Part shown: in pieces, positions 10,849 through 58,829 of the stretch
How positions within the stretch are numbered: position 1 is the first letter of the stretch
Layout: each line of letters opens with the position of its first letter
DNA from: Saprospiraceae bacterium
GTDB taxonomy: Bacteria; Bacteroidota; Bacteroidia; Chitinophagales; Saprospiraceae
Reading direction: 5' to 3'
Assembly: GCA_027488855.1 (NCBI GenBank)
Contig: JAIYAV010000083.1
Coordinates: 1-64,000 of the forward strand
DNA length: 64,000 bases
Program-made: the position numbers and the translations under genes
The notes under the pieces: generated by a model
The model's database searches: none
The model's input: only the letters and a program-made list of their open reading frames with translations
Told to the model about the DNA's origin: nothing

Positions 10849-10852
10849 AAGC

Positions 10853-10987
10853 AAGTGAAAAGTGAAAAGTGAAAAATGAAAAACGAAGCAGAATGCTCAA
10901 GTGTAAACCCTTGCTGTTCACTTTTAGTTTTTCACTTTTCACTTTTCACTTTTCACTTTTCATTTTTCACTTTTCACTTTTCATTTT
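10853..10987. repeat. Palindrome with arms of tandem AGTGAAAA units
   Basis: The left arm is about four copies of an 8-bp unit (AGTGAAAA, some AATGAAAA), and the right arm is eight or more copies of the complement TTTTCACT. About 50 bp of unique sequence lie between. The right arm runs up to the Gfo/Idh/MocA stop codon (10986-10988). The RNA would fold into a long hairpin between the oxidoreductase gene and the potassium channel gene. Confidence 0.93.
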
Positions 10988-12470
10988 ACACAATCGCCCA
11001 ACCATTCCGATACTCCCGCCCAACGAATTGGTTGGCATCTTCAAAGTTGGTGATTTTCATGGAAGTTCCGTCCCACAGCAGTTTCTGGCGGCCGTAGAAC
11101 TCCATGCGGTTGTTGGCAGCCTGTTTGCGCAGGTTGTAGCTGCGAATGGCGAGGTTGCCCATCAGTACCGTTTCGGTGAGTGGCCCAGAGTAGTCGAAAG
11201 AGGAGGTCAAAGCCAGGTGCTCCTTGCTCGCAAAACCTGCTTTACAAGCTTCCGTCCAGGAGCGTTGGTGGCCGTATTCGGGTACCGTTGGCGTTCCAGG
11301 AGCTGGTGGAGTAACCGGAGGCATTTCCAGTTTGGTGCCATTTTTGAGGTATACTTTGGGCACTAAGCCGTAAGTTCCACAAGTCATGACGCCTTTGGTA
11401 CCGACCATAATCACCCCATTGGAGCTGTCATTGTCGCCAATTGGATCACTAGCTGGAATCAAATCCGGGTGGAAAGCGCGAATCCCGCCATCGGTCCAGA
11501 TCATAGTTACTGGCGATGCGTTGCGCTTGGTAGCCGGGAACTTGATTTGGACGTGGGAGGAGGGTGGGCAACCTTCAGGGATGTACTCAGGTGTCCAGTC
11601 CTTGAGGAAAACCTGGCCTACGCTACATTCTACCTCAGTTGGGTAACCCAGACCCAAAACGCGGAAAGCTGGATCGATCAGGTGGCAACCCATGTCGCCC
11701 AATGCACCCGTACCAAAGTTCCACCAGCCCCGCCACTTGAAGGGGTGGTATAGTGGATGGTAATCTACATAATTGGCTGGGCCGATGAACAGATCCCAGT
11801 TTTCTTTGCTCATGCTTTCTGGCAAAGCAGGCTTTTCGGTAGGCACGGGAATACCCTGTGGCCATACCGGACGGTTGGTCCAGATGTATACGGTGTGTAC
11901 TTTGCCCACCAAACCCTTGTCCAACCACGCCATCATTTGGGTTTGGGTAGGGTTGGAAGCGCCCTGGTTGCCCATTTGGGATACCACTTTGTATTTGCGG
12001 GCCGCTTCGGTCAACATCCGGGCTTCCCTGATGTTGTGCGTCAATGGTTTTTGAACGTACACGTGTTTGCCCAATTGCATCGCCGCCATCGCCGCTGCTG
12101 CGTGGGTATGGTCGGGCGTGGAAATGGTCACTGCGTCGATGTCGTTTTTCATTTCTGACAACATCACACGAAAGTCGGCGAACTTTTTAGCAGTTGGAAA
12201 CTTGTCTACAGTGGCTTTTGCACGGGCAAAATCCACGTCGCATAGGGCCACTACGTTGTTGGCTCCGTTGCCCCAGGCATTGGCAATATCGGAAGCACCC
12301 TTGCCACCGGCACCAATTGCGGCAATATTGAGTTTATCACTCGGTGGAATGAAGCCACGGCCCAGCACATGCCGGGGTACAATGGTCAGGCCACCAATCG
12401 CCAAGGCAGCATTTTTGACAAACTTACGCCGCGAAGCACCTGACGTAGTTATTTGTTTGTTCTTGCTCAT
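10986..12470 (-). CDS. Tat-exported Gfo/Idh/MocA family oxidoreductase
   Basis: The 494-residue protein carries an N-terminal twin-arginine signal (SRRKFVKNAALAIGG), then a Rossmann domain (LNIAAIGAGGKGASDIA) with CDVD, the family motif STPDHTHAAAAMAAM and VQKPLTHNIREA (the EKP-like dinucleotide motif appears as QKP), then the alpha/beta C-terminal domain with GDMGCHLIDPAF. It probably acts on a sugar or cyclitol in the periplasm with a tightly bound NAD(P). The substrate is unknown. The stop codon is encoded at the edge of the AGTGAAAA palindrome. Confidence 0.92.
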   Translation of the reverse strand: MSKNKQITTSGASRRKFVKNAALAIGGLTIVPRHVLGRGFIPPSDKLNIAAIGAGGKGASDIANAWGNGANNVVALCDVDFARAKATVDKFPTAKKFADFRVMLSEMKNDIDAVTISTPDHTHAAAAMAAMQLGKHVYVQKPLTHNIREARMLTEAARKYKVVSQMGNQGASNPTQTQMMAWLDKGLVGKVHTVYIWTNRPVWPQGIPVPTEKPALPESMSKENWDLFIGPANYVDYHPLYHPFKWRGWWNFGTGALGDMGCHLIDPAFRVLGLGYPTEVECSVGQVFLKDWTPEYIPEGCPPSSHVQIKFPATKRNASPVTMIWTDGGIRAFHPDLIPASDPIGDNDSSNGVIMVGTKGVMTCGTYGLVPKVYLKNGTKLEMPPVTPPAPGTPTVPEYGHQRSWTEACKAGFASKEHLALTSSFDYSGPLTETVLMGNLAIRSYNLRKQAANNRMEFYGRQKLLWDGTSMKITNFEDANQFVGREYRNGWAIV

Positions 12471-17044: not shown

Positions 17045-17078
17045 GCTTTGGAATCATTTCCCCAAAAATAAGAACTTA

Positions 17079-17162
17079 CCGCTGAATTTGAAAGCAAATT
17101 CAGCGCTAAGTGTGTTTTAAAATAGGGTTAGCGCTGAATTTGCCCCCAAATTCAGCGCTAAG
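17079..17162. repeat. Two tandem palindromes sharing the arm GCTGAATTTG
   Basis: CGCTGAATTTG-AAAG-CAAATTCAGCG (17080-17105) is followed by TTAGCGCTGAATTTG-CCCC-CAAATTCAGCGCTAA (17128-17161). All four arms are the same unit, so alternative pairings are possible. It lies between the ATPase gene start and the small ORF at 17117. Confidence 0.92.
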
Positions 17163-17248
17163 TAGTAAATGAGGAATGATGCACTTGCAACAAAAAATAC
17201 CATCAATACAAATGCTTTACTGGCATGTTTTATGGGTTGCTCGCTCAT
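17117..17248 (-). CDS. Putative 43-residue single-pass membrane peptide
   Basis: A short open frame starts 3 nt after the stop codon of the outer-membrane protein gene (TAATTAATG), a spacing typical of coupled genes. It encodes a polar N-terminus (MSEQPIKHASK), one hydrophobic helix (AFVLMVFFVASASFLIYYLA) and a tail LNLGANSALTLF that is encoded by the tandem palindrome. A transmembrane peptide is plausible, but an accidental frame cannot be excluded without homologues. Confidence 0.4.
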   Translation of the reverse strand: MSEQPIKHASKAFVLMVFFVASASFLIYYLALNLGANSALTLF

Positions 17249-20379: not shown

Positions 20380-20985
20380 TTACGATTGGTCATCATACCC
20401 TGGCAGATGTACAAAGCTGCTCCCTGGTAAATAGGGTTCAAGTAAGTCTACCTCCAGTAAACATCCCTGGTTTTCAAATACGTAGTTCCGAGCACTACTG
20501 TACAGATACTCTTCCTCTTTTTCCACCCATCCTGCCCGAACCGGGTTTTGATGAATGTAGTCTACTTTTTGCCAAATTACCTTGGGCGAAACCAAAGCAA
20601 TGGGATGGTTATCTTGTATCCAAAATTGATAAGTTCGATTATTGGCATTGAATCGTGCATAATATCGAAATACATGTAACATCCATTCTTTGCGGCTTTC
20701 ATTTCCTTTCGCAATGGCTTCCAAAATCTGACGTGAGGTATATTTTTTAAAATCTCGAAGCACTTCCGATAGCGTCAACTCCCCTTCCGTTCTGACAATC
20801 ATGTGAATGTGATTGCTCATAATCACGTAGGCACAAACCATAAGGCCTTTTTCTTTCCGGCAATAGGCCAGGCTTTCGATCAGGATGTCTCGATAGGTCT
20901 TTCTGGTGAATACATCTATCCAACCCACAACAGTACATGTGACATAATTCAAACCCTGCTGATCCAGGATGCGGTAACGTGGCAT
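20380..20985 (-). CDS. REP-associated tyrosine transposase (RAYT, IS200-like Y1 family)
   Basis: The 201-residue protein is a Y1 HUH transposase: MPRYRILDQQGLNYVT at the start, the metal-binding HUH motif YVIMSNHIHMIVR (His59, His61) and the candidate nucleophile Tyr82 in RDFKKYTSRQI. The later segment VDYIHQNPVRAGWV is typical of the RAYT/'transposase IS200-like' group. RAYTs cut and join REP hairpins and are single-copy domesticated elements rather than classical IS. The flanking inverted repeats R2 and R3 support this assignment. Confidence 0.93.
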   Translation of the reverse strand: MPRYRILDQQGLNYVTCTVVGWIDVFTRKTYRDILIESLAYCRKEKGLMVCAYVIMSNHIHMIVRTEGELTLSEVLRDFKKYTSRQILEAIAKGNESRKEWMLHVFRYYARFNANNRTYQFWIQDNHPIALVSPKVIWQKVDYIHQNPVRAGWVEKEEEYLYSSARNYVFENQGCLLEVDLLEPYLPGSSFVHLPGYDDQS

Positions 20986-24526: not shown

Positions 24527-24601
24527 AATTAAGCGAACTTAGTTTAAAAATCAAACTAAGTGCCGAATAAATTTTTTTATGCTCAGTTTGGCCCAAGTTG
24601 T

Positions 24602-24716
24602 GGGCAAAAATAAATGTTCATTTTCCCTGAGCCAAAGGATTAGATAAGACACTTGAAATGAAACGTTTACTCATCTAATCCTTTGGCAAAATGAACACTT
24701 ATTTTTTTATCCCCCC
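24602..24716. repeat. Long palindromic repeat, family P1, copy 2 (loop ACTTGAAATGAAACG)
   Basis: Same architecture as copy 1. The outer arm reads AAATGTTCATTTT with AAAATGAACACTT opposite: the C-to-T change of the left arm is matched by G-to-A on the right. The inner stem GCCAAAGGATTAGAT is kept, with one mismatch. It lies between the divergent ADP-ribosylglycohydrolase and dnaX genes, 31 bp before the dnaX -7 element. Confidence 0.95.
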
Positions 24717-28845: not shown

Positions 28846-30060
28846 CTACCACTGCCTTGACTGATACGGATACCGAATATGGTACTGCTCCTTTACCATT
28901 TTCAACACCTTCTCCCGCAGGTCATCCACACCTTCTTTGCTCATGGCCGAGATCAGTACGTTATCGTGGGCAAAGAGGTGTTTGAGGTTGCCGCGAATGC
29001 CTATTTCAATTTCCTCCTTGGCGTCGTCTTCCAAAAACGGATCGTAGTGCAACTCGCGGTAACGGTCAATTTTGTTGAATACGAACAAAGTAGGCTTTTG
29101 CAGGGCCTTCAATTCTTCCAAGGTATTGTTGACGGTACGGATTTGATCTTCGTGCTGAGGGTGCGAGATGTCTACCACGTGCAGCAAGATGTCACTTTCG
29201 AGTACTTCATCGAGGGTAGATTTAAAACTTTCGATGAGGTGGTGGGGCAATTTGCGGATAAACCCAACGGTGTCGGAGAGCAGAAAGGGCACACCCTCCC
29301 AGGCCACCTTGCGTACGGTCGTATCTAGCGTCGCAAACAATTTATTTTCAGCAAAAACGTCCGATTTGCTCAGGAGGTTCATCAAGGTAGACTTGCCTAC
29401 GTTGGTATAGCCCACCAGTGATACTCGGATCAATTCGCCCCGGTTTTTGCGCTGGGTAGTGGCTTGCCGGTCGATTACCTTGAGCTTTTCTTTCAGGAGC
29501 GCAATTTTGTCGCGAATGATCCGGCGATCCGTTTCAATTTCCTTCTCCCCGGGACCACGCATCCCGATACCCCCGCGCTGGCGTTCCAAGTGCGTCCAGA
29601 GGCCACGCAGGCGCGGCAGCAGGTACTGCATTTGGGCCAGTTCCACCTGGGTTTTGGCCTGCGCGGTTTGGGCGCGGGTCGCAAAAATGTCCAGGATGAG
29701 GCTACTGCGGTCGATGATTTTGACTTTCAGGGCTTCTTCTAGTGCATTGGTTTGTTTGCCCGTGAGGTCATCGTCAAAAATGACCATCGAAATTTCTTCG
29801 TGCCGCTCGATGTAGTCGGCAATTTCTTCCAGCTTCCCTTTACCGATGTAGGTACGGGAATCGGGAGCGGCCAGTTTTTGGGTGTAACGCTTTAGGGTTA
29901 CTGCTCCAGCTGTAAGGGCCAAAAACTCCAGTTCATCCAGGTATTCTTCAACTAGTTCTTCGGTCTGCGATTTGTGGATAACCCCCACCAACAGGGCGAA
30001 TTCCGCCTCTTGTTTGATGCCTTTTTTCCGCTGTTCTCCGATGTTCCACTCGTTTGCCAT
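28846..30060 (-). CDS. hflX: Ribosome-associated GTPase HflX
   Basis: The 404-residue protein has the HflX N-terminal domain (TYIGKGKLEEIADYIE, VIFDDDLTGKQTNALE), the glycine-rich linker (ERQRGGIGMRGPGEKEIETDRR) and a GTPase domain with G1 GYTNVGKSTLM, G3 DTVGFIRKLP and G4 VFNKIDRY. HflX splits stalled ribosomes under stress and binds the 50S subunit. It is monocistronic; palindrome P1b lies just upstream of its start. Confidence 0.97.
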   Translation of the reverse strand: MANEWNIGEQRKKGIKQEAEFALLVGVIHKSQTEELVEEYLDELEFLALTAGAVTLKRYTQKLAAPDSRTYIGKGKLEEIADYIERHEEISMVIFDDDLTGKQTNALEEALKVKIIDRSSLILDIFATRAQTAQAKTQVELAQMQYLLPRLRGLWTHLERQRGGIGMRGPGEKEIETDRRIIRDKIALLKEKLKVIDRQATTQRKNRGELIRVSLVGYTNVGKSTLMNLLSKSDVFAENKLFATLDTTVRKVAWEGVPFLLSDTVGFIRKLPHHLIESFKSTLDEVLESDILLHVVDISHPQHEDQIRTVNNTLEELKALQKPTLFVFNKIDRYRELHYDPFLEDDAKEEIEIGIRGNLKHLFAHDNVLISAMSKEGVDDLREKVLKMVKEQYHIRYPYQSRQW

Positions 30061-30084
30061 ATTTCTATTTTCGATCTAAGAATG

Positions 30085-30197
30085 ACGCAAAAAATTACTT
30101 CCCAATTTTTTTGAGGCTTTTGAATAGGAAGCTCACTTGAAATGAAGCGTTCGACTTCCTATTCAAAACCCAAATTGGGAAGTTAATTTTTCTGCGT
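30085..30197. repeat. Palindrome P1b: P1 loop on an unrelated stem
   Basis: Inner arms TTTTGAATAGGAAG and CTTCCTATTCAAAA, outer arms TTACTTCCCAATTT and AAATTGGGAAGTTAA, extending to GACGCA/TGCGTT. The apical loop has ACTTGAAATGAAGCG, the same core as the P1 family, and the left-side bulge reads TTGAGGC where P1 has TTGAGCC. The stems themselves share no sequence with P1. The stop codon of the EnvC-like gene (30183) lies in the right arm. Confidence 0.95.
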
Positions 30198-31517
30198 TGT
30201 TAACCAGCTTGTGGGATTGAGTTTTTGTTTGTCCCGCCATAGTTCAAAGTGCATTTCGGGCTTTTCAGTTCCCACTTGGCCAATTTCTTGTCCACTAGTG
30301 ACAGAATCTCCTCTCTTGATGCTCACTGAAGCAAGATTGGAATACACGGTATAATAAGTGCCGTGTTGCAAAATTACGGTGTATTGATAACCATTGATGA
30401 ACTGAGCACCAACGACCTTTCCTTCAAAAACGGCGCGTACTTTGCCTGCGGCAACTGTTCCGATGTCAAGCCCGCTATTGGATACCTTTACATCCTTGTA
30501 TTTTGGGTGCTGAAAGGTACCAAAACCTTGCACGATGTGCCCTTGATCGACGGGCCAACCGAGTCGACCCCGCCGGGCACCAAAAGAGCCAGTGGCCACT
30601 ACATCCTCGGCTGGAGGAGCATTGGTCGGTGGCGGTGGGGTATTTACGCTGGCTTTGCTGGCATTGCGATCCGTTTTGGTAGAAGGCAGTACCGTGGTTG
30701 GTGCAGGACTATTGACATTGGCCAGGGTTTCGGCACTGCGGGCTTTTTTGCGCTGGGCCAACATCTCTTGCTGGATCACATTTTCAATGACCCGATTGAC
30801 TTTGTTGTGGTTTTTTTGCCGATCGGTCAATTCCTTGAGCAACACTTTTTCATCGGCCTTCAAACTTTTGAGGGCTTTGTCTTTGTCCTCCAATTCAACA
30901 CTGAGGCTTTGTTTTTGTTGCTCTACCCCACCCAGCAGTTTTTCCTTTTCCCGAATCCGGCGTTCTAGTTGGATCGTTTTGGCCTGTAAGGTTTTTTGGG
31001 TTTCGACAATCATTTTGGCCTGGCGTTTGCGGTAGCGCTGGTATTGCCGGATGTATTGCCAGCGGCGAATGGCGGCATTGAGGTTGTCCGCAGACAACAA
31101 AAAAACCAGGTAACTCTGATTGAGTTTGTTGCGCAGGGCCAGGCGCAGGGTTTGGGTGTATTCCTGTTTCAGGCGGCTCACATCGTCTTGAAGGGCTACC
31201 AAAACGTCATTGGTACGCAGGATACTTTCTTCATTAAAAGTAATTTCCTGGTGGAGGGTATTGATGAGCTGTTCGCGCTTTTTGACCTGTGATTGCAGGG
31301 TCAGGAATACTTGTAGGGCGGCATTTTTATCCTTGCGCGTGGCCGACAAACGGGTATTGGTTTGATCAATTTCTTCGATCAACTTGCGGCGTTTGTCCTC
31401 CAGGTCTTTTCGCGTTTGGGCAAACGCTGGCTGCATCCACCAGGACAAACCCAGTAGCAGCAACAGCACCCGACCAACGATTCGTTTATTTGATCCTTTT
31501 GAAGCGCTGTGGAACAT
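30183..31517 (-). CDS. EnvC-like murein hydrolase activator (degenerate LytM/M23 domain)
   Basis: The 444-residue protein has a signal peptide ending QPAFAQ, a long coiled coil (about 30-265, rich in Lys/Glu/Gln heptads), a Pro/Thr/Ser-rich linker and a C-terminal LytM domain. The metal ligands of active M23 peptidases are changed: the first His is Asn in NSGLDIG and the HxH position reads YSNL, while HFELW remains. It therefore probably activates amidases as EnvC does rather than cutting peptidoglycan. It overlaps the DUF4292 gene by 32 bp; an ATG at 31541 is also possible. It is the last gene of a four-gene envelope operon. Confidence 0.85.
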   Translation of the reverse strand: MFHSASKGSNKRIVGRVLLLLLGLSWWMQPAFAQTRKDLEDKRRKLIEEIDQTNTRLSATRKDKNAALQVFLTLQSQVKKREQLINTLHQEITFNEESILRTNDVLVALQDDVSRLKQEYTQTLRLALRNKLNQSYLVFLLSADNLNAAIRRWQYIRQYQRYRKRQAKMIVETQKTLQAKTIQLERRIREKEKLLGGVEQQKQSLSVELEDKDKALKSLKADEKVLLKELTDRQKNHNKVNRVIENVIQQEMLAQRKKARSAETLANVNSPAPTTVLPSTKTDRNASKASVNTPPPPTNAPPAEDVVATGSFGARRGRLGWPVDQGHIVQGFGTFQHPKYKDVKVSNSGLDIGTVAAGKVRAVFEGKVVGAQFINGYQYTVILQHGTYYTVYSNLASVSIKRGDSVTSGQEIGQVGTEKPEMHFELWRDKQKLNPTSWLTTQKN

Positions 31518-32256
31518 CAAATGGCATCGATATAGGGACATTGAGTTCTACCTGAGTGAATTGAATGTTTACTTCAACTTTTCCTGTTTCGCGGCTGTCC
31601 ACCACGAATTTACGAAGGTACGAAAAATCTTGTTTGTCGTTAGCCGCTTTGTATTCTTCCAAATCCAAATTTAAGCTACGGGAAGCTCCTGGTTCCAAAT
31701 ATTGCAAATTGCGCAGGCGTAATGCCGCTTTTTCGATCGACATTTTCACCTCTTTGCCCGAACCGGAATCGCTCAATACATAATTGTCGCCCTCGGAAGT
31801 ACTGCTGAACTTGCGCGACAGGAAAAAAGGATTGCCCAGTAAAACTTGCTGAATCAGCAACAAATTGGCCGGTAGCTGGTATTCCTTGCTCAGGTGATCG
31901 AGGCCGTATACGGCATATTCGTTGTTGATGCGATCGAGAATATGTACCGAATCTTTGGTGATCAGGGCGCGACCGACTTCAAAACCCAGTTTGCTGAGGG
32001 TAACCCATACCGAACTGTCCTTTTGCATTTTGATTCGCGCAGTAGCGGAAGCGGACATATCTGGGCTGCGAAAATCAATTTTGGCTCGGGCATCAAAGGT
32101 TTTGGCTTTGATTTGATTGGTTTCGATGCGGCGCACCAATAGCTCCGTGGAGCTTAGTTCGGTAGTGCCCAATTTTTTGGAGGTGCCGCAAGCAAAGTTA
32201 AGGCCAGCCAGCAGCAGCAATAAAAACAATTGAGGATTACTCATTTGGTTTTTCAT
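31486..32256 (-). CDS. DUF4292 lipoprotein (LolB/LppX-like fold)
   Basis: The 256-residue protein has a lipoprotein signal with lipobox NFACG near residue 22, followed by the DUF4292 pattern: KAKTFDARAKIDFRSPDMSASATARIKMQKDSSVWVTLSKLGFEVGRALI and LLIQQVLLGNPFFLS in pieces. The predicted concave beta-sheet resembles LolB/LppX carriers, so transport of lipid or lipoprotein between membranes is a reasonable guess. Start ATG 32256 gives a compact signal; 32313 would overlap the TPR gene. It belongs to the nucleotidyltransferase-TPR-DUF4292-EnvC operon. Confidence 0.83.
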   Translation of the reverse strand: MKNQMSNPQLFLLLLLAGLNFACGTSKKLGTTELSSTELLVRRIETNQIKAKTFDARAKIDFRSPDMSASATARIKMQKDSSVWVTLSKLGFEVGRALITKDSVHILDRINNEYAVYGLDHLSKEYQLPANLLLIQQVLLGNPFFLSRKFSSTSEGDNYVLSDSGSGKEVKMSIEKAALRLRNLQYLEPGASRSLNLDLEEYKAANDKQDFSYLRKFVVDSRETGKVEVNIQFTQVELNVPISMPFDVPQRFKRIK

Positions 32257-38338: not shown

Positions 38339-38359
38339 GACAGCTGCGCTGTCTTTTTT
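38339..38359 (+). terminator. Rho-independent terminator after the DUF3127 gene
   Basis: GACAGC-TGC-GCTGTC followed by TTTTTT, 38 bp after the stop codon. It is nested in the left shoulder of palindrome P2a. Confidence 0.85.
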
Positions 38360-38446
38360 AATGAACCACCTAAGACATCTTAGGGCACCTTAGTCGGTAG
38401 CCTTCTGAGGTGCTCTAAGGTGTCTAAGGTGGTTCATTAAACAGCA
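38347..38446. repeat. Palindrome P2a (unit head-to-head)
   Basis: The left arm TTAATGAACCACCTAAGAC continues with ATCTTAGGGCACCTTAG; the right arm is the complement, CTGAGGTGCTCTAAGGTG then TCTAAGGTGGTTCATTAA. The GAACCACC end is outermost. The same ~35-bp unit occurs at 44492 in the opposite order. It lies between the convergent DUF3127 and zinc-ribbon genes. Confidence 0.93.
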
Positions 38447-43304: not shown

Positions 43305-44495
43305 TTGCAAACCACCCTCTACTTTCGGCTCGCCCTTTTCCAGTTCCTCCAATTTTTCATCTGGGGATCCTGGGCGGTTACCACGGGTACTTACCTTTTA
43401 AAGACGCAACATTTTAGTGGCCGCGAAGTGGGTCTGGTGTACGGCACCACGGCCATCGCGGCGATGGTTTCCCCCTTTTGGGCAGGGAGATTGGCCGATC
43501 GGCATTTTCCCTTGGAGCGCATCCTAGCCGTTTTGCACTTTGTGGGTGGCCTGCTGATGTTTTTGTTGAGCACTTTGGGGGAGTTTGGGTTGTTTTACCC
43601 GGCCATATTGCTTTACTCCATTTGTTACATGCCGACCTTTGCCTTGTCTACGGCTTTGACTTTTCACAACATTCCCGAGCCTGCGCGGGATTATCCCCGG
43701 CTGCGGGTTTGGGGTACGCTGGGCTGGATTGCTACGGGTTTGTGTGTAGGTGGACTGGATTTGGAAACCACGGCCTTACCCCTGCAGCTTTCGGCTACCG
43801 CCTCCATTTTTCAAAGCATTTATGTGTTGACTTTGCCTTCCACCCCACCGCCGGGTAAAAAGGACAAACCCAGCTTATTGGCAACTGGACGGCAGCTCAT
43901 CCGGGATCGCAGTTTTATGGTCTTGCTGATTGCACTGACCCTGATTTGTATCCCCAATGCCTTTTACTACAGTTTTGTCAATGCCTATTTGAAAGACGAG
44001 GGCTTCAAAAACGCGGCGGCGATGATGTCAATTGGGCAGGCCACGGAAATTGGCTTTGTGTTGCTGTTGCCGTATGCGCGTCGCTACTTTGGACTCAAGC
44101 CAGTGATTTTGTTGGGGATTCTGGCCTGGGGCATTCGATATTTGTTGTTGTCTTGGGGGGGAATACACCTGCCGCTGCTGGTGTGGATGGGCTTGGGGCT
44201 GCATGGCTTGGCCTGGTCATTTACGGCATTGGCTGGACAAATTTACATTGATGAAAAAGTTCCGGTATCTTTGCGGAGCACGGCGCAGGGTTTTATTGCG
44301 CTGATCATTTCGGGATTGGGGGCATTTATTGGCTCCTTGATTGCGGGTGAAGTGGTGGATTGGTATACCTTGGGCAAGACGATCAACTGGTCTGCAGTTT
44401 GGTTGGTGCCGGGTGGAGTAGGGATATTTACGGCATTGTTTTTTGCGTTGTTGTTTCGGAATCCACAACGCAGCGTTGAGAAAAAATCAACCTGA
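43305..44495 (+). CDS. MFS transporter, nucleoside:proton symporter (NupG)-like
   Basis: The 396-residue membrane protein has about 12 hydrophobic helices. The N-terminal LALFQFLQFFIWGSWAVTTGTYL is the hallmark of the nucleoside:H+ symporter family, and WAGRLADRHFPLERIL fits the conserved loop 2-3. It likely imports nucleosides across the inner membrane. The start codon appears to be TTG; no ATG lies near the conserved N-terminus. Its TGA stop is inside palindrome P2b. Confidence 0.88.
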   Translation: MQTTLYFRLALFQFLQFFIWGSWAVTTGTYLLKTQHFSGREVGLVYGTTAIAAMVSPFWAGRLADRHFPLERILAVLHFVGGLLMFLLSTLGEFGLFYPAILLYSICYMPTFALSTALTFHNIPEPARDYPRLRVWGTLGWIATGLCVGGLDLETTALPLQLSATASIFQSIYVLTLPSTPPPGKKDKPSLLATGRQLIRDRSFMVLLIALTLICIPNAFYYSFVNAYLKDEGFKNAAAMMSIGQATEIGFVLLLPYARRYFGLKPVILLGILAWGIRYLLLSWGGIHLPLLVWMGLGLHGLAWSFTALAGQIYIDEKVPVSLRSTAQGFIALIISGLGAFIGSLIAGEVVDWYTLGKTINWSAVWLVPGGVGIFTALFFALLFRNPQRSVEKKST

Positions 44496-44594
44496 GATGG
44501 CCCTTAGATGCCTTAGATGGTTCAATTAAAATGTTTTTTGAACTACTCTAGTTTGTTTTTTTGAACCATCTAAGACATCTAAGGGCCACCTCAG
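44492..44594. repeat. Palindrome P2b (unit tail-to-tail)
   Basis: Outer CTGAGATGGCCCTTAGATG and its complement CATCTAAGGGCCACCTCAG flank inner CCTTAGATGGTTCAA / TTGAACCATCTAAG. The unit is the same as in P2a, but here the CTGAG end is outermost, so the arms are inverted in order. Internal copies of CTTAGATG suggest the unit itself arose by short duplications. The stop codon of the upstream transporter gene is in the left arm. Confidence 0.93.
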
Positions 44595-44967: not shown

Positions 44968-45028
44968 AATCTTGTTCTTCCGAACCTTTTCCCTACCAAA
45001 AATTGTTTAAATTTGGCATTAGGCAGAA

Positions 45029-45141
45029 GGGCAAAATAAATGTTCATTTTTCTTGAGCCAAAGGATTAGATAAGACACTTGAAATGAAACGCTTACTTAT
45101 CTAATCCTTTGGCAAAATGAACAATTTATTTTTTATTGCCC
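45029..45141. repeat. Long palindromic repeat, family P1, copy 3 (loop ACTTGAAATGAAACG)
   Basis: Same design as copies 1 and 2: inner GCCAAAGGATTAGATAAG/CTTATCTAATCCTTTGGC, outer AAATGTTCATTTT/AAAATGAACAATT, bulge TTCTTGAGCC. It lies 62 bp after the small gene at 44644 and 35 bp before mutL, both on the plus strand. Confidence 0.95.
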
Positions 45142-45175
45142 TAGATTAGCTAAGCTTTAAAAAGACTCAATACTT

Positions 45176-50014: not shown

Positions 50015-51520
50015 ATGAACAGTGCACTAAAAATTTACAATAGTCTCAGCAAAGAGAAAGAAGTATTCCTACCCATTCACCCTGGCCGGGTTGGCATGTA
50101 CGTATGTGGTCCTACCGTTTACAGCAATGTTCATTTGGGCAACTGTCGCACTTTTGTGAGCTTCGACATCATCTACCGCTACCTGCAATTCCTGGGCTAC
50201 AAGGTGCGCTACGTGCGCAACGTGACCGATGTTGGCCACCTGGAAGGCGATGTGGATACGGGAGGTGAAGACAAATTGGGTAAACGCGCCCGTCTGGAAC
50301 AACTGGAGCCAATGGAAATCGCGCACAAGTACACCGTGGGTTTTCACGACATGATGCGCATTTTTAACGTACTTCCGCCCAGCCTTGAGCCGCGAGCCAC
50401 CGGGCACATTCCCGAGCAAATTGAAATGGTGCAACAAATCCTTGACAATGGCTACGCTTATGAAGCCAATGGCTCGGTGTATTTTGATACCTTGAAATTT
50501 GCGGAGAAAAGTGGCATCTACGGAGCCTTGTCGGGCCGAAAAATTGAAGACCTCATCTCGGAATCACGCGACAACCTCAAAAAGCAGGACGAAAAACGCA
50601 ACTCTGCCGATTTTGCGATCTGGATCAAAGCCGATCCCGAGCACATCATGCGCTGGAACTCGCCCTGGTCGGTGGGCTTCCCGGGCTGGCACCTGGAATG
50701 CTCGGCAATGAGTACCAAATACCTAGGCAAAACCTTCGACATCCACGGTGGGGGCAACGACCTCAAGTTTCCACACCACGAAAACGAGGTGGCACAAAAC
50801 TACGGGGCATGTGGTTGCACCCCGGCCAAAACCTGGATGCACTGCAACATGCTTTTGCTGAATGGCAAAAAAATGTCCAAGTCGGATGGCAATTCCATCA
50901 TGCCGGAAGAGTTGTTTACGGGAAATAGCCCGCACATCACGAAAGGGTATAGTCCGATGGCCGTGCGCTTTTTTATGCTACAAACGCATTACCGCAGCAC
51001 CCTGGACTTGACCGATGAGGCGCTACAAGCCGCTGAAAAAGGTTACCGCCGCCTGATGGAAGCATATGCAACGCTGCAAGCACTGCCTTTCAGTGGAGGC
51101 GCTACAGGTGCCCAAGACCAGGAAGTGAAAGAATGGATCAGCTCCGTACACGAGGAGATGGACGATGATTTCAATACGCCCAAAGCACTGGCGCGTTTGT
51201 TTGAAATCGTGAGCCGGGTCAACAGCTGGAAAGGTGGTCAAGTGAGCATGGAGGGCTTGAGTGAAGCAACTTTCAGCGAGCTAAAAACGACTTTCCATAC
51301 CTTCTTGTTTGACATTTTTGGTCTGCAAGATGAAGTTGCTGCTGGTAGCGACGATAGTTTCAAAACCATTGACGGCCTAATGCACCTGATCATCGACATG
51401 CGTGCGGATGTACGTGCGCGTAAGGATTGGACTGCCGCAGATAAAATTCGTGATACGCTGAAAGCAGTGGGTATTGTGCTGAAAGATGGGAAGGAGGGGA
51501 CTGAGTGGGGGAAGGAGTAG
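50015..51520 (+). CDS. cysS: Cysteinyl-tRNA synthetase
   Basis: The 501-residue class I synthetase contains [21 protein letters not shown] (zinc Cys and a HIGH-like HLGN motif), the zinc-binding [25 protein letters not shown] and the KMSKS motif in [12 protein letters not shown]. The C-terminal helical anticodon domain ends with [30 protein letters not shown]. It charges tRNA-Cys. It has its own promoter, and a simple-sequence repeat begins at the base after its stop codon. Confidence 0.98.
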
Positions 51521-51585
51521 AAAGTGAAAAGTGAAAAGTGAAAAGCGAATAGCGAAAAGTGAATAGCTGGGAGTGAATGGGATTT
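51521..51585. repeat. Single arm of AGTGAAAA-type tandem units after cysS
   Basis: About six degenerate copies of AGTGAAAA / AGCGAATA begin directly after the cysS TAG. It is the same unit as at 10853, but without the complementary second arm. Confidence 0.85.
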
Positions 51586-58225: not shown

Positions 58226-58403
58226 TAGTTAGGGGATTTCGGATTTCGGAATGGTGATTTCGGATTTCGGTGGAGTTCTACTTTCAGAATTTGAATCGAA
58301 CCTAAAAATACATTTTCAGGCATGGAATACTAAGCGTTGGTACTCATAATACTCAAATTTGAAAGTCCCGCAAAATCCGAAATCCGAAATCCGAAATCCG
58401 AAA
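58226..58403. repeat. Palindrome with arms of GAAATCC heptamer units
   Basis: The left arm is several copies of GGATTTC, the right arm (58374-58403) four copies of its complement GAAATCC. About 100 bp lie between. The right arm ends at the stop codon of the Spy-like gene. Confidence 0.93.
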
Positions 58404-58829
58404 TTATTTTCTCCCTCTTGTCTCCTGAACTCGCCGCAACAATTCCTTATTGAACTCTTGTTCACTGCGTTGCAAAAGGGCAATCTTGCGAACGGCCATA
58501 AAACCCTTCATGCGCTGAAAGTAGTCGCGTTTGAGTTTGATGAGTTCTTCTTCCATCTCAAAACGATCCAGCATAGCGCGTTCTACCTCCTGGTCGCTCA
58601 GGGTGTTGATGTCTTGATCAGGGCGGTATTTTTGGCGAATCCTTTTGTGTTCGGCTTCGTATTGGTTGTACACGGGCCAAAATTTCTCCGACTCTTCAGG
58701 AGTGAGTTTCAGCTTATCGGTGATAAAAGCCACCTTTAAGGCGCGAATGCGGTCTTGAGCCTGGGTCTCTTGGGGCAAAGCCAGCAGAAAAGCCCCAAAC
58801 AAAACTGACGCTACGATCCATTTTTTCAT
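58404..58829 (-). CDS. Spy/CpxP-like periplasmic protein
   Basis: The 141-residue protein has a signal peptide (MKKWIVASVLFGAFLLALPQETQAQ) and a helical body beginning ITDKLKLTPEESEKFWPVYNQYE, then QEVERAMLDRFEMEEELIKLKRDYFQRM, a pattern of Spy/CpxP-like heavy-metal or misfolding sensors. ATG 58829 gives the clean signal; an upstream ATG at 58901 would overlap the membrane-protein gene. It is the last gene of a sigma/anti-sigma-like operon. Confidence 0.8.
   Translation of the reverse strand: MKKWIVASVLFGAFLLALPQETQAQDRIRALKVAFITDKLKLTPEESEKFWPVYNQYEAEHKRIRQKYRPDQDINTLSDQEVERAMLDRFEMEEELIKLKRDYFQRMKGFMAVRKIALLQRSEQEFNKELLRRVQETRGRK

Follow-up and report, generated by a model that had tools for sequence, protein, structure and literature searches.

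A mobile hairpin element with a constant loop and variable stems in the Saprospiraceae

The hairpin at positions 30080-30200 of the window (the whole stretch of DNA that was analysed, 64,000 nt) belongs to a known kind of element, the hairpin MITEs, and has an unusual module in which a constant loop is combined with variable stems. In the reading that we favour, with a probability of about 0.6, it is one copy of a non-autonomous family of hairpin MITEs of about 121 nt that has spread over the Saprospiraceae, that is probably inserted in trans and whose bulge and loop may be read on a single strand. The element is shorter than 500 bp, its terminal arms are complementary, it is flanked by a target-site duplication, and its site is empty in a genome of the same genus (G125), as expected for a MITE. 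As TWA duplications indicate a transposable element, MITEs are the close described kind, which was absent from the initial annotation of this DNA.

Alignment with G125 led to BLAST pieces that skip exactly 30080-30200 and overlap by TAA, and the orthologous site reads CTAACC once in G125 versus CTAA-[element]-TAACC in the window, indicating an insertion with a 3-bp target duplication (left TAA at 30077-30079, right TAA at 30201-30203). In G018, also of the same genus, the two flanks of the insertion site align about 480 nt apart, so that this genome offers no clean empty site. The hairpin had initially been placed at 30085-30197; a hairpin does lie there, with a fold of 30085-30200 reaching a z-score of -8.5 (0/200 shuffles equally good), but the true borders are 30080-30200. 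On the plus strand, this 121-nt element, assigned to stem class B, begins its outer stem (the terminal inverted repeat) with the 5' arm ACTTCCCAATTT at 30097-30108, which a run of A extends outwards, and closes it with the 3' arm AAATTGGGAAGT at 30172-30183, both assigned from sequence and pairing. A one-sided bulge TTGAGG with approximate borders follows in the 5' arm at 30111-30116, the same arm as in its relatives, and then the inner stem (5' arm TTTTGAATAGGAAG, 30118-30131; 3' arm CTTCCTATTCAAAA, 30155-30168), for which sequence, fold and alignment pairs agree. The constant loop ACTTGAAATGAAGCG occupies 30135-30149, with a 12-nt core at 30137-30148, as defined by exact matches and by the closing-pair analysis described below. 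The insertion point is the 3' end of an M23-peptidase ORF (30183-31541, minus strand), whose final residues TTQKN are now encoded by the element; the orthologue in G125 ends with WLERR instead, as read by hand from the alignment. A further neighbour is a GTPase gene (28846-30060, minus strand) which, judging by its domains, we take to be HflX.

Loop match and fold identified class A copies on the plus strand of the window at 1803-1922 (the P1 of the initial annotation, with the duplication TTA), 24597-24716 and 45023-45142, the latter two without an intact duplication. The window also holds a second long-hairpin family with arms AACCAYCTAAGACATCTWAGGG... and without the constant loop (two copies, 38357-38441 and 44492-44594, with unlike loop lengths), a tandem pair of palindromes of the type GCGCTGAATTTG...CAAATTCAGCGC at 17074-17163, tandem heptamers AGTGAAA / TTTTCAC at 10850-10997 and 51505-51577, including opposite orientations 40 kb apart, and repeated ATTTCGG units in inverted arrangement at 58234-58404.

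The loop 15-mer ACTTGAAATGAAVCG, which had been reported as common to the element and P1, has four exact matches in the window, where 0.54 would be expected even with two mismatches allowed, and 42 exact matches in the 8.37-Mb draft genome versus none for the reversed control. These matches lie between inverted repeats: at least 10 of the 12 inner-arm positions are paired in 42/42 loop sites, compared with 14/840 random places. One mismatch led to additional hairpin copies, mostly ACTTAAAATGAAVCG, and a few of the loci examined were not hairpins; with up to two mismatches 130 matches were found versus 69 for the reversed loop, so that the looser matches are largely due to chance. Beyond this genome, a covariance model built from 15 copies matched 40/398 genomes and 16/112 genera of the family at E<=0.001, with nine candidates scored per genome and the genomes supplying the model included; chance may account for the weakest of these matches (E 1e-4 to 1e-3), and 26 genomes in 11 genera were matched at E<=1e-8 by a hand count of the table. 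As the model was trained on the constant loop, looped matches are favoured. The analysis covered 57 of 70 covariance loci, omitting L366-L372 (known classes), L388 (same letters as L387), L392-L395 (without the constant loop) and L417, and 56 of 59 matches formed a diverse set after two opposite-strand duplicates and L396 (identical to L373) had been dropped. A constant loop with at most three mismatches is present in 51 of these 56, or in 51/60 once L392-L395 are counted. Relatives with the same outer plan and another loop are L386, L391-L395, L416, L430 and L433; L386 and L416, both from G063, are near-identical copies that keep the same type of ends, the bulge and a TTA duplication around a different apical loop. 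The loop is therefore not indispensable for spread. A loop scan of named genomes recovered, among the matches listed, mostly Saprospiraceae/Saprospirales MAGs and Lewinella cohaerens DSM 23179, with further stems; among the at least 80 loci listed, about a dozen from other taxa (e.g. L211, L213, L216) were chance loops without a hairpin. Similarly, a loop search of 150 genomes of the family gave single matches in three, of which L047 is real and L045 and L046 lack a hairpin. Plasmids gave no match to the element, and the five matches in viral contigs all fall in one phage gene without a hairpin.

The stems around this loop differ. The window's own genome contains class A, to which P1 belongs, and class B, to which the element belongs, and G051, from another genus, contains class C, whose outer arm resembles that of class B and whose inner stem is unrelated. 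A class C left end occurs 119 times in G051, with roughly 30 of these loci examined, and this genome also has some tandem arrays with a period of about 120 nt. At L056, L231 and L266, two to three hairpins stand head-to-tail with a spacing of 119-121 nt and array-specific junctions. In comparisons between six classes, the loop region has an identity of 0.88, compared with 0.40 and 0.36 for the inner arms, 0.56 and 0.57 for the outer arms and 0.47 for the bulge. The initial statement that the element has no stem similarity to P1 thus holds for the inner stem and fails for the outer arm, where a GCAAAAA-type end is common to both. Element length ranges from 114 to 124 nt (88 copies), and the ends of the main classes are asymmetric and conserved, with 5' GTAGTGKGC-type or GTATGACGC and 3' ...CGCCCC or ...GCGTTAC. 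Clustering of the inner stems of the 56 diverse matches and the 88 copies by a 0.67 identity rule resulted in 21 clusters, several with a single member: 17 looped, one deletion form with the loop and three without it. The initial annotation had suggested that a loop search with subsequent clustering by stem might reveal several stem classes with one loop, and its modular design of a constant loop on variable stems is borne out by this result.

Part of the 15-mer is itself paired. In the 44 loops that were parsed (12 of the 56 diverse loops could not be), the closing pairs covary as AC/GT (22), GC/GC (8) and GT/AC (5), with one closing pair broken in a further five (TC/GT), and 80/88 closing-pair cells are paired, compared with a mean of 68.1 and a maximum of 76 after shuffling. 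The covarying pairs reduce the constant loop proper to about 12 nt, TTRAARTGAANC. In a 15-row alignment of the hairpins, 25/33 pairs change on both sides, paired cells reach 90.1% versus 65.6% when shuffled and at most 53.8% with slid partners, and the covariation score is 0.616 versus 0.178. The overall plan consists of two stacked helices with a 5'-arm bulge between them. This bulge of 4-7 nt, which had also been noticed as common to the element and P1, is real: 51/56 diverse relatives keep it on the 5' arm only, 45 of these have it at nt 28-32 (positions counted from the list) and 49 have nothing unpaired opposite it. Its consensus, taken by eye, is roughly YTNAG. As many stem classes surround one loop and pairs change on both sides, it is natural to infer that a protein or RNA recognises the loop and the bulge.

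A perfect stem pairs equally well on both strands, and therefore only imperfect pairs can tell which strand folds. An A.C mismatch on one strand corresponds to a G.U pair on the other. With a false loop pair removed, stems of classes A, B and C contain A.C mismatches in 171 cells and G.T in 84; counted by distinct states, the ratio is 35 to 18 for shared states (p 0.027) and 28 to 21 for singletons (p 0.39). In the diverse set 90 A.C stand against 39 G.T, a count that includes one false loop pair and the L396 duplicate. RNA folding energy was lower on the minus strand in 43/56 relatives and 80/88 copies, and with the arms alone the minus strand was better in 39/56 and 68/88, respectively. The copies share ancestry and part of the A.C excess does not represent independent events, so that these data hint at, but do not prove, folding of the complementary strand in vivo.

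These structural data bear on a simpler explanation, an ordinary IS5-type MITE in which only the ends matter, template switching keeps the arms complementary and the single-copy loop merely evolves more slowly. This explanation is possible, although clearly the less probable one: conservation of the loop in class A does not exceed that of the stem (identity 0.92 versus 0.94), relatives with another loop have reached several copies in one genome (G063), and short forms of 38-40 nt, with the hairpin deleted and both ends kept, still show target-site duplications, but correction between the arms should erase the one-sided bulge, and neither the covarying closing pairs nor the excess of A.C over G.T would be expected. 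The short forms look like palindrome deletions between the direct repeats CAAAAT or ATTTTT, and such later deletions could explain them within our reading as well.

Concerning insertion, 93 full copies with both ends were pooled across the genomes sampled, with two mid-length copies set aside, and 48 of them have identical 3-bp flanks, compared with 12.2 expected on re-pairing and a maximum of 25 in 20,000 permutations. The same applies to the short forms (12/24; 4.2 expected, largest permutation 11), and an uncontrolled count gave exact 3-bp flanks in 26/56 of the diverse set. TTA or TAA makes up 43/60 matching duplications, the base before the duplication is C in 32/60 and the base after it G in 25/60, which together describe a target of roughly C-TWA-G. 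Insertion at C-TWA-G with duplication of TWA is the signature of IS5/PIF-type transposases. Among copies with 800 nt on both sides (n=123), 23 lie inside ORFs, compared with 1993/2460 random points, and no orientation bias to the flanking genes was detected (++28, --27, +-23, -+22; n=100). This intergenic placement, a very stable hairpin and the better folding of the minus strand would suit an RNA signal, be it a terminator, an mRNA stabiliser or an sRNA, that has been domesticated and is under selection for how it affects adjacent genes. We regard that as unlikely, given the balanced orientations, the insertion being absent at the orthologous G125 site and the lack of an Rfam family: Rfam 15 gave no match at gathering score for the window and 11 loci, and at E<=1 only sub-threshold miRNA families in seven loci. 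Moreover, selection on single copies would presumably not preserve master copies across genera.

The initial annotation had suggested looking for a nuclease, integrase or reverse transcriptase gene with a linked copy. The left end GTAGTGGGGCAAAA has 98 exact occurrences in the genome (control 0), and of the 90 that were sorted 47 belong to looped hairpins, 23 to short forms and 20 to neither. The largest ORF within the next 1.5-2 kb downstream was analysed with Pfam for 18 of these 20 and revealed no transposase, integrase or reverse transcriptase; 15 contain ordinary host domains and three have no Pfam family, and the remaining two loci have no ORF of 100 aa. Such a linked gene was thus not found in the ORFs beside these 18 loop-less left ends. 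Likewise, no autonomous element with the hairpin's ends was found among the 90/98 left ends of the own draft genome or when 1.48 Mb of loci, several from draft genomes, were scanned for TIRs and TSDs. L203 and L207 were rejected as an autonomous element, as they represent a 277-bp composite (L203 7570-7846; L207 809-1085, reverse strand) in which another small repeat with TGCTGTCGG ends is nested in the inner stem; the two composites, which lie at different places, are 95.7% identical, suggesting movement of the composite. L290 turned out to be two separate copies around a host gene. In L309 (G051), an isolated class C left end at position 1500 of the reverse strand runs directly into a tyrosine-recombinase-like frame, recognised by eye, at a contig end.

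A bulged hairpin with a constant loop and stems free to change would also be in keeping with the proposal of the initial annotation, a recombination or processing system, here in the form of a folded site of the integron attC, retron or DGR type with an enzyme linked to it. We consider such a site very improbable, since no linked transposase, integrase or reverse transcriptase appeared in the ORFs scanned beside the 18 loop-less left ends and since the duplication and the near-symmetric C-TWA-G target suggest DDE-type insertion with staggered cuts; for an integron attC, the target-site duplication argues against it in particular. Mobilisation by a Y1 (RAYT) transposase, as for REP-like elements, is just as improbable. 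Such an origin could explain the 5' GTAG beside the hairpin foot, and the genome has 13 Y1_Tnp matches, one of them in the window (20695-20913, minus strand); however, Y1 insertion is not known to leave a target-site duplication, the 3-bp duplications are present here, and this hairpin is found at none of the 13 Y1_Tnp loci. Loop-like 12-mers (at most two mismatches) occur at four of the 13, unframed by inverted repeats in the 11 loci examined, and the Y1_Tnp loci L086 and L088-L090 have palindromes of their own. Described GTAG stems are also shorter, 6-13 bp with loops of 2-3 nt in many families, according to the passages available of the published description (PMC3733652).

For the transposase itself, profile searches of the own genome gave no match to PF13586 or PF13359 and one to PF01609. 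This gene, whose IS is presumably ISAs1-like and has the TIR CAGGGCAAACGC, was rejected as the partner. As the genome is a draft of 422 contigs, these searches may miss multi-copy ISs. PF01609 was found at 28 places in G125, G018, G051 and G134, and a search there for end repeats and direct flanks led to three IS groups at TWA: an IS5-family IS of G125 (NF033580; 871 bp, four copies, TTA or TAA at 4/4), another IS5-family IS in G018 with a TTA duplication, and an IS701-family IS of G125, which shows both ends at 3/5 places, at CTTAG. As partners, all three were discarded with ends matching those of the hairpin at only 4-11/21 positions, and so was a DDE_Tnp_4 gene in G051 (L340) with no recognisable ends. 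The IS701-family copies at L360, L361 and L363 in G125 lie at CTTAG, a pentamer preferred by the hairpin too.

From the target duplications, the covariation and the conserved bulge and loop, we propose the following. An IS5-superfamily (IS1031/PIF-like) DDE transposase would insert the element in trans, with the outer arms serving as terminal inverted repeats; this is the most likely route of insertion. The bulge and the apical stem-loop would be read single-stranded, as a cruciform or as RNA and more likely on the complementary strand, a step to which we give about even odds. The reader could be either the machinery of transposition itself or a host factor on which spread depends, and pairing, bulge and loop would be kept in spreading lineages, while the letters of the stem drift, because such a factor reads them. 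More tentatively, and with the balance against it, one might see here a superfamily of transposable elements that requires a folded single strand (cruciform/ssDNA or RNA) for its spread and that couples structure-reading to DDE-type, 3-bp-duplicating insertion; its factor would read the positioned bulge and the 12-nt loop, and the helices could be rewritten as long as they remain paired. A coupling of this kind was not encountered in the literature at the level of titles and abstract beginnings, which included few subscription papers and no preprints. Ordinary MITEs conserve their ends, whereas this hairpin family also conserves its shape and loop across many genera with most paired bases replaced, a pattern known from recognised RNA or folded DNA that should be unneeded for a plain DDE transposase. 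Whether folding of a strand is required for a bacterial MITE to move, and which factor reads that strand, thus becomes a testable question, for which the naturally replaced stems already provide an experiment.

Among known systems, the IS5 family with its IS1031 group and the eukaryotic PIF/Harbinger elements (Tourist MITEs) are similar in the 3-bp TNA or TTA/TAA duplication, and TWA-duplicating IS5-family ISs occur in the same genus as the element. The termini of the hairpin do not match those of the TWA-type ISs of this genus, and its ends are asymmetric. To our knowledge, IS5/PIF systems have no counterpart of the inner stem-loop. Regarding the duplications, a 3-bp TNA has been reported for the IS1031 group in the text available (PMC12016507), and PIF/Harbinger elements duplicate TTA/TAA within a longer preferred target according to part of the corresponding account (PMC2836001). 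GTAG-tagged REPs, described as a superfamily in the passages cited above (PMC3733652), share with the element the 5' GTAG at the hairpin foot, the many copies and the intergenic location, but differ from it by the target-site duplication, the length of about 121 nt and the absence of a linked Y1 gene among the 13 Y1_Tnp loci. The initial annotation knew of no described element with this design; in titles and abstract beginnings (again with few subscription papers and no preprints) we recognised no account of the element and did not meet the combination of loop, bulge and stems, but hairpin MITEs as such have been described. Prokaryotic MITEs are short, non-coding and intergenic, with inverted arms and target-site duplications, and long stem-loop transcripts are typical according to the excerpts seen of two accounts (PMC10969869, PMC2229807); in CIR elements, the DNA motif GANTC is located at an exposed terminal loop or overlaps with it, as stated in the same part of the latter (PMC2229807). 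In all these general features, including the stem-loop-forming transcripts, our element resembles Correia/NEMIS, ERIC, RUP, QMITE and CIR as these excerpts portray them, and it differs from them, as so portrayed, in a positioned one-sided bulge and an apical loop that is kept over 17 inner-stem clusters within one bacterial family. A constant loop, a positioned bulge and freely replaced stems, combined across a family, are what is unusual about this hairpin MITE.
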